A stretch of 61,933 nucleotides of DNA. Origin: Helicobacteraceae bacterium. Its GTDB lineage: Bacteria > Campylobacterota > Campylobacteria > Campylobacterales > Sulfurimonadaceae. Where the stretch lies: NCBI GenBank assembly GCA_015493495.1, contig WGDB01000114.1, positions 1 through 61,933 of the forward strand, read 5' to 3'. Below the pieces are notes generated by a model. The model searched no databases. It saw only the letters and a list, made by a program, of their open reading frames with translations, and was not told where the DNA came from. The position numbers were made by a program, and so were the translations under genes. Below are positions 6,951-61,933 of this stretch, in pieces (position 1 is the first letter of the stretch; each line of letters starts with the position of its first letter).

Positions 6951-7091
6951 TTACGAGTTACGAAATATGACGCTGTCATCTTAAGAGCAAGAGCCTTTGT
7001 CAACAGATTAAGAGCAAAAGATGACAGAGTTCATAAAAACAAGGATCATCCGTCGCAGGTACTTCGTACATCTGCTTTGGTTCCGACCCTA

Positions 7092-7115
7092 AAAAAGCCA
7101 AGCAGTTGGCTTTTT
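7092..7115. terminator. Bidirectional hairpin terminator AAAAAGCCAA-GCAG-TTGGCTTTTT
   Basis: Perfect inverted repeat with flanking A-run/T-run between convergent genes. Confidence 0.7.
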
Positions 7116-7129
7116 CTTAACGGGTCTCA

Positions 7130-7205
7130 GGTGCTCGTTGTGCTGAAGCGATCCCGATAGCGCACTGCTGTGCGTGGAGTGGTGAGCTGAAGCGCAAATC
7201 GCACC
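7130..7205. repeat. Structured intergenic element, copy A (76 nt)
   Basis: About 54/76 identical (hand count, ungapped) to 61704-61779; long imperfect hairpin with compensatory changes. Confidence 0.6.
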
Positions 7206-7219
7206 GCAGCTACAACTTT

Positions 7220-7885
7220 TTAATGGAATAGGCTATTTTTGTCGTAGTTATGTCTTGCGTGTAAAAGCGCTTCATCATGCTCTATAAAATACTTATAACT
7301 CGAATACGAAAGCGACTTATCCATCTTCTCATTCACGATCTTCCTGATCGCTGTCAAATTGACCCCAAGGTTCAATAACTCCATGATCTCTTCACGATAT
7401 CCATCAAGTGCCCGTTCTTTGTTTTTATGTCCCTTGGGACGACCCAGTTTGATCCCCTTGGCCTTAACAGCAGCAAGTCCCTGCTTGGTTCGTACGGAGA
7501 TAAAAGTACGTTCGGTCTCTGCAAAATAACCAAACACCTTTTCTATGGTCTCTAACAGAGGATTTTCCTCACTCATGTTGATCTCGTTTTGGTGGGCAAA
7601 AAGTATAGAGACTCCTGCTTTTTTAAGCGCCTCCAAAAGGTTCAGAACCTCCAAGATATTACGACCCATACGAGAGAGTTCCGCCACTATCAGGCTATCG
7701 CCTTTTTGGACTTTTGACAGGAGGAAATCGATACGCTTTTCATGGGCCATTTTTTTAGAATAAGTCTCTACCTCTATGAACCCATCTACTGAAACATCCA
7801 AAGTCTCAGCATATTTGTTAATAGCATTTTTTTGTTTGATCAGCTCATTCTTATCTTTATAAAGACGTAGGTAGCCATAAAACAT
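7220..7885 (-). CDS. Serine recombinase/resolvase family homologue with degenerate catalytic Ser (YLRLY in place of YxRVS)
   Basis: LSRMGRNILEVLNLLEALKKAGVSILFAHQ, RTKQGLAAVKAKGIKLGRPKG resolvase signatures; N-terminus MFYGYLRLYKDKNELIKQKNAI. Confidence 0.85.
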   Translation of the reverse strand: MFYGYLRLYKDKNELIKQKNAINKYAETLDVSVDGFIEVETYSKKMAHEKRIDFLLSKVQKGDSLIVAELSRMGRNILEVLNLLEALKKAGVSILFAHQNEINMSEENPLLETIEKVFGYFAETERTFISVRTKQGLAAVKAKGIKLGRPKGHKNKERALDGYREEIMELLNLGVNLTAIRKIVNEKMDKSLSYSSYKYFIEHDEALLHARHNYDKNSLFH

Positions 7886-61541: not shown

Positions 61542-61703
61542 AAAAGTTCCTTATGATTATATGTGTGGAATTATAGCTAATTCAAAAAAAGAGTAAGAGC
61601 GGTTTGCCAATAGGTAACATAGATTTAACATATTAAGAGTAGAAATAGGAAAAGATGGCGAAGCTCATCAAAAAGAGAGCTTCACCAACGAAATTTCAGA
61701 TTT

Positions 61704-61779
61704 GGTGCAGATTGTGTTGAAGTGAACCCGAAGGCGTACATCGGTACGTCGAGAGGTGAACTTCAGCGCAAGATGCGCC
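61704..61779. repeat. Structured intergenic element, copy B (76 nt)
   Basis: Ungapped homologue of 7130-7205; outer stem extends with TTTCAG (61694-61699) / CTGAAA. Confidence 0.6.
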
Positions 61780-61808
61780 GAAGCTGAAAAGTTCAGATAA
61801 GGCTTAGC

Positions 61809-61933
61809 TTATTTGAATGGCTTTGCTAGATCTTTTTCGATTGCGCCTGGTACACTCGCAATAGTCATAAACTCACCCATAGTAAGTTGTGGGTAAGAGA
61901 CCGCAATATAATACTTTGGTGCAAGTATCTTAG
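61809..61933 (-). CDS. C-terminal fragment of an unidentified protein (truncated by window edge)
   Basis: Minus translation ..KILAPKYYIAVSYPQLTMGEFMTIASVPGAIEKDLAKPFK*. Confidence 0.55.
   Translation of the reverse strand, partial: KILAPKYYIAVSYPQLTMGEFMTIASVPGAIEKDLAKPFK

Follow-up and report, generated by a model that had tools for sequence, protein, structure and literature searches.

Two structured elements at the ends of genes

The window analyzed here, comprising 61,933 nt of contig WGDB01000114.1 (positions 1 to 61,933, forward strand) from a Helicobacteraceae bacterium (assembly GCA_015493495.1; Sulfurimonadaceae in the GTDB lineage), carries two copies of a structured intergenic element, both with the folding strand on the + strand. 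Copy A (7119..7226; cmsearch with model R1, 76.3 bits, E = 9e-15; core at 7130-7205) adjoins a serine recombinase gene on the minus strand (7220..7885; PF00239 Resolvase, E = 2.6e-24; Mpi-invertase family), whose stop codon (7220-7222) falls inside the far outer arm of the element. Copy B (61689..61800; 96.5 bits, E = 9e-20), in which both outer arms are present, follows the 3′ end of a minus-strand gene (61809..61933) that terminates in ..VPGAIEKDLAKPFK, with its stop at 61811-61809, and is cut by the contig end; a gene in genome G005 (locus L214) with the same C terminus as this neighbor also bears the element.

The initial annotation had recognized the similarity of the two cores, and an exact ungapped count of 7130-7205 against 61704-61779 returns the 54/76 identical positions that it had estimated by hand (the best other ungapped 76-mer matches to copy A within the window reach 36 on the + strand and 41 on the − strand). 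Its proposed + strand fold also holds for both copies: copy A folds at −36.4 kcal/mol (z = −4.0; − strand, −26.3) and copy B at −43.9 kcal/mol (z = −8.5; − strand, −23.6), such that the + strand beats shuffled sequences and far outdoes the − strand in each case. The compensatory changes that it described in the apical and outer stems, the U-A to U-G change, and the tandem G·A steps are all present, as are the 14 nt between position 7205 and the recombinase stop codon, a distance that was mentioned as an aside and is the main clue to the element. The 76-nt extent originally given is accurate for the core but not for the element as a whole, since the model matches are longer and add an outer stem.

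Copy A is composite and atypical of the family. Its near outer arm is absent, the place being taken by a second dispersed repeat (7049..7132, + strand) that consists of a terminator-like hairpin (AAAAAAGCCAAGCAGTTGGCTTTTTC) plus a GGTACTTCGTAC hairpin and is joined to the copy A core. This second repeat (query part 650-733) has many matches in every congener, and it is likewise fused to an element core at G001:C138, G004:C81, and G004:C120. Its AAAAAAGCCAAGCAGTTGGCTTTTTC hairpin is strong and terminator-like, with an imperfect orientation bias in the complete congener G002. A small hairpin repeat, AAGATGGCGAAGCTCATCTT, lies at about 61655-61675 of the window, some 20 nt from the element; it also flanks many other copies and often has "gctcttaatctgtgaaatctgcgtaatct" and tandem repeats with a 7-nt unit, e.g., (TTAACAC)n, after it.

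A dispersed family with a conserved architecture

Searches with copies A and B (blastn) recovered about 45 dispersed copies in the window's own genome, and these were confirmed by a covariance model for which 32 of them served as input. All seven congeners searched contain 25 to 50 matches each (a number that includes weaker matches to the opposite strand of the same palindrome), versus 0 to 3 in other genera. The two-copy element of that annotation, which had allowed that no further copies might be found, is thus replaced by a genus-wide dispersed family plus older low-copy homologues across the order.

The full element is about 110 nt in length and takes the overall shape of a single long rod. 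The outer stem, usually TAAAAGTTTCAG/CTGGAACTTTTA, is variable yet paired in most copies (e.g., AAAAAACGGCGA/TCGCCGTTTTTT), and in copies A and B its far arm extends to the stop codon of the neighboring gene. Inside the outer stem lie a GGTGY/RYGCC stem, a tandem G·A step, and TTGTGC/GTGCAA, followed further in by a subfamily-specific helix (wholly different between subfamilies), a second G·A-rich step (CGAWRG/NGAG), and the apical hairpin. The tandem G·A steps and wobble pairs are conserved, and the intervening helices covary freely: the internal-loop sequences UAGAUU/AAGAUG and CGAAG/NGAG stay constant between families while helices change.

The family is apparently undescribed. No Rfam family matches the element at the gathering score (at E values up to 10, the only hit is a meaningless one near copy A), all tests for membership in REP families that were run were negative, and no similar DNA was found in plasmids or phages.

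Covariation and the folding strand

An alignment of 104 distinct copies has standard pairs in 97.3% of its pair cells and two-sided changes at 25 of its 40 pairs; two-sided cells number 360, versus 89 in shuffled alignments and 42 to 70 under slid structures. Because the 104-copy alignment was fitted to the model, it is biased toward that model; the same figure of 25/40 pairs with two-sided changes comes, however, from a MAFFT alignment of 32 copies that was not fitted, and single-copy homologues from other genera, aligned without the model, provide independent covariation support. Together, these data strongly support selection for the folding of a single strand.

The strand in question is the antisense strand of the adjoining gene in all 101 copies considered. 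Its mean minimum free energy is −57.2 kcal/mol, about 22 kcal/mol better than the −35.2 kcal/mol of the sense strand, and it is the lower of the two in every copy; on this strand, G·U cells number 616 and A·C cells 35. In the complete congener, ordinary 3′ flanks taken as a control show no strand bias (46/101). Of the two structural targets originally suggested, a folded RNA or a cruciform, selection on a folded single strand thus withstands the 104 copies and the controls, but the cruciform is not favored, since the antisense strand folds far better throughout. A simple mutation bias as the source of the G·U excess was rejected: with the sense strand on the G-rich leading strand, the opposite would be predicted, the antisense strand being on the chromosome's C-rich side. 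DNA energies also favor the antisense strand in 101/101 copies, and because RNA and DNA parameters agree, the strand bias cannot tell RNA from single-stranded DNA (ssDNA); both a transcribed RNA and ssDNA are possible as the folded form.

Anchoring at stop codons

In 98 of 101 copies from six genomes, an open reading frame of at least 60 aa ends at the element. The first base of its stop codon falls between −17 and +14 nt relative to where the element begins; the commonest position, +5, is inside the outer arm. Each of about 30 copies in the window's genome has its 3′ end adjoining the stop codon of an opposite-strand gene. Stop codon usage at elements (TAA 83, TAG 15, TGA 0) departs from that sampled in the complete congener (156, 98, and 74, respectively), most clearly in the complete lack of TGA (0/98 versus 74/328). 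The bearing genes, as judged from their proteins, include prfA, efp, argJ, queE, nifU, yebC, lgt, gmk, trxA, pckA, ilvD, guaA, and porB; a regulon was rejected, as these are mixed core genes. In more than 20 clusters, two to four species have the element at the same orthologue; at argJ, it is present in six of the seven genomes where the gene end could be read and absent in G001.

The configuration of an intrinsic terminator, a stable hairpin followed by a T-tract, occurs on the folding strand in 74/101 copies, versus a background of 26%, and a sense-strand T-tract occurs in 73/101. Part of the T-tract excess derives from the stop codon itself, about a quarter of the copies have no clear T-tract, and the argJ copies of G005 and G007 are without one at both ends. 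Downstream genes are convergent in 47/88 cases, versus 24/81 in the comparison set (P = 0.002); nonetheless, the downstream neighbor is often codirectional, so that the source of an antisense RNA is not evident. No conserved promoter was seen upstream on the folding strand.

Orientation with respect to replication

In the complete congener G002, whose origin lies near position 0 by GC skew, 16/16 copies beyond 1.45 Mb are on the + strand and 13/13 copies below 1.2 Mb are on the − strand. The resulting 29/29 agreement with replication orientation (five shadow matches, which scored lower and lay on the opposite strand at these sites, are left out of the count) compares with 62.5% of genes on the leading strand (P ≈ 1e-6). 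Other closed genomes are concordant (G008, 5/5; G113, 7/7; G221, 6/6, with reversed skew; and G222, 4/4, with no skew check), although some of their copies follow tRNA or rRNA genes, where this orientation is expected anyway. Within the window, GC skew is −0.096 throughout and copies A and B are both on the + strand, as the orientation rule expects. The rule has exceptions, since three single-copy elements (those at guaA in G337 and G385, and another in G256) run against the skew, and the link is therefore primarily to the gene and secondarily to replication.

Homologues outside the genus and turnover of copies

A family-level scan of 201 genomes yielded matches in 83. In the large genus g2, most matched genomes have a single match, which follows porB in each g2 locus read. 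The 22 porB elements from outside the window's genus share the same architecture and the same strand preference (149 G·U versus 6 A·C cells; alifold energies of −40.9 kcal/mol antisense and −6.4 kcal/mol sense), as do nine guaA elements (57 versus 3 cells) and those at ilvC (29 versus 2). An order-level scan of 300 genomes with a broader model found matches in 56: guaA precedes the element in most loci read in family f9 (nine of which entered the strand comparison), with infB doing so once, and in family f1, the element is also preceded by ilvC and purH. Weaker members follow tRNA genes, with one situated within an rRNA operon. At locus L326 of G008, the architecture of the element appears in the 16S-23S spacer, directly after tRNA-Ile(GAT) and before the 23S rRNA gene, at two genomic places. 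In the window's genome, guaA also bears the element (L089); the Rfam purD RNA motif (RF01069) occurs about 1 kb from this guaA, at L089:347-475 (−).

The window's genus is the only one with many copies, and the simplest reading is that an old, low-copy, gene-tied element has multiplied in a single genus, although horizontal spread is possible. Comparison of genome G000 with its sister species G006 revealed no empty sites among those compared: sites are occupied in both, and several differ by their cores, by internal deletions, or by inserts. In one copy in G005, an entire new element comes after the remnant of an arm, lineage-specific subfamilies and flanks are seen, and small modules have been inserted into element arms and loops. 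One such module of about 20 nt, TACCC(G/A)AAGGGGCAGACCCA, occurs as an insert in element arms and in the small hairpin's loop, and others enlarge the apical loop (L131, L135-L138, L129, and L036; G002 and G000).

A putative boundary to antisense transcription

Our preferred reading, a tentative one that falls short of probable, is that the element may be a strand-biased 3′-boundary hairpin acting mainly on antisense (usually head-on) transcription, and that it is an old element multiplied in one genus. RNA polymerase would arrive from the downstream side, and the antisense RNA would fold into the rod as the stop codon of the gene is reached, with the U-rich end (the complement of the stop TAA plus AA) helping to halt the polymerase. 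Antisense transcription, which is head-on for leading-strand genes, would in this way be kept out of the gene, and the sense transcript would fold much more weakly. Within the genus, the low-copy element represented elsewhere by the porB, ilvC, and guaA homologues would have been duplicated to about 45 gene ends, after which copies would have swapped cores or been replaced in place. Head-on antisense transcription may do harm, copies in which the strong strand faces the lagging-strand template may be lost, and either process or both could produce the orientation bias.

Such a barrier would explain the strand, the stop-codon anchor, the T-tract, the excess of convergent neighbors, and the lack of a conserved promoter, and the position and strand of the fold suggest a directional gene-end barrier of a previously undescribed kind. 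The conserved internal loops are left unexplained, since a terminator has no need of internal loops that stay constant between families. A broader view, possible but not one we would call probable, is that the elements form an order-wide, undescribed class of gene-end structure: a protein-binding rod of antisense-strand RNA or ssDNA that would mark the stops of core genes and copy itself between gene ends in step with the direction of replication. Structures at gene ends are usually read as terminators or mRNA stabilizers of the preceding gene, whereas this one is preserved on the opposing strand, right at the stop codon, in several genes and in more than one family of the order. The elements may accordingly offer a natural system for studying how cells bar antisense or head-on transcription from important genes, or how ssDNA hairpins spread, and with the covariance model and the list of genes, culturable relatives can be used for direct tests.

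Alternative explanations and related systems

Bidirectional intrinsic terminators resemble the element in being gene-end hairpins with A-tract/T-tract arms that are enriched between convergent genes; they differ in that the element is about 110 nt long, has conserved internal loops, is anchored at the stop of one gene, strongly favors one strand, and does not always have a T-tract. Integron attC sites offer another parallel, as they too lie directly after stops, fold on the antisense strand, and, as described for sedentary integrons, have the folded strand on the leading-strand template (PMC11023631). The folded strand might by analogy work as ssDNA, offering a recombinase or transposase a hairpin substrate that would be attC-like in its logic and not by membership, a reading that we consider unlikely. 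It would explain the dispersal and orientation of copies, and the DNA folding energies, the differing cores of near-identical species at the same site, and the nested replacement are consistent with it. Set against this, the attC boxes at the element ends number 1/101 for R″ (RYYYAAC), 5/101 for R′ (GTTRRRY), and 0/101 for both together, and, unlike attC sites, elements sit at fixed core genes without cassette arrays: no tandem arrays were found, copies being distributed over about 40 contigs and both replichores beside different core genes. Sites are stable between G000 and G006, the Y1 transposase loci scanned are devoid of copies, and the porB and guaA homologues are confined to one gene in many species, with no spread. 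Nor was a target-site duplication found (flank similarity of 3.64, versus 3.55 in permuted pairs), which also counts against a selfish MITE-like repeat without host function that sits at gene ends because other insertions were lost. Many copies in one genus only, with lineage-specific subfamilies and flanks, would fit such a repeat, but the stop anchoring, antisense fold, and compensatory evolution also hold in the low-copy porB, guaA, and ilvC homologues, and of the readings weighed here, this one strikes us as the most improbable.

REP hairpins near stop codons can slow translation termination in Escherichia coli, acting in the sense mRNA. A REP-like 3′-UTR element that protects the mRNA end or slows termination would accord with the stop-codon position, the sense-strand T-tracts, and the many dispersed intergenic palindromes of mosaic composition, often near gene ends, that typify REP/BIME (RAYT) systems. 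The sense mRNA of this element is, however, the weaker-folding strand, unlike in E. coli REP action: it folds far worse in every copy, carries conserved A·C mismatches, and in the porB elements has an alifold energy of only −6.4 kcal/mol (versus −40.9 antisense), and we regard this explanation as improbable. REPs are also shorter, at 20 to 40 bp. Both the GTAG and CGTC REP/RAYT families have been reported in Sulfurovum NBC37-1 (PMC3733652); these tags occur near the foot of the element in 1/101 and 13/101 copies, respectively. It is scarcely more probable that the elements constitute a family of short antisense or convergent noncoding RNAs with a protein partner, for which the tandem G·A and wobble positions might form the binding site. 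The retention of internal-loop sequences between families while helices vary would suit this reading, but no conserved promoter was seen upstream on the folding strand, and copies are always bound to gene ends and never free-standing. Rfam structured RNAs such as the purD motif are similar in having conserved, covarying folds in the same bacterial group; they differ in that the element matches no Rfam family. A Y1/RAYT transposase was rejected as the mobilizer: Y1 genes are present in 6/8 genomes of the genus, but the R1 model matches nothing at 13 Y1 loci. At L259, L262, and other loci, RAYT-sized Y1 transposases lie between GGTTCACCTGACCCC-type direct repeats, which make up a separate repeat family.
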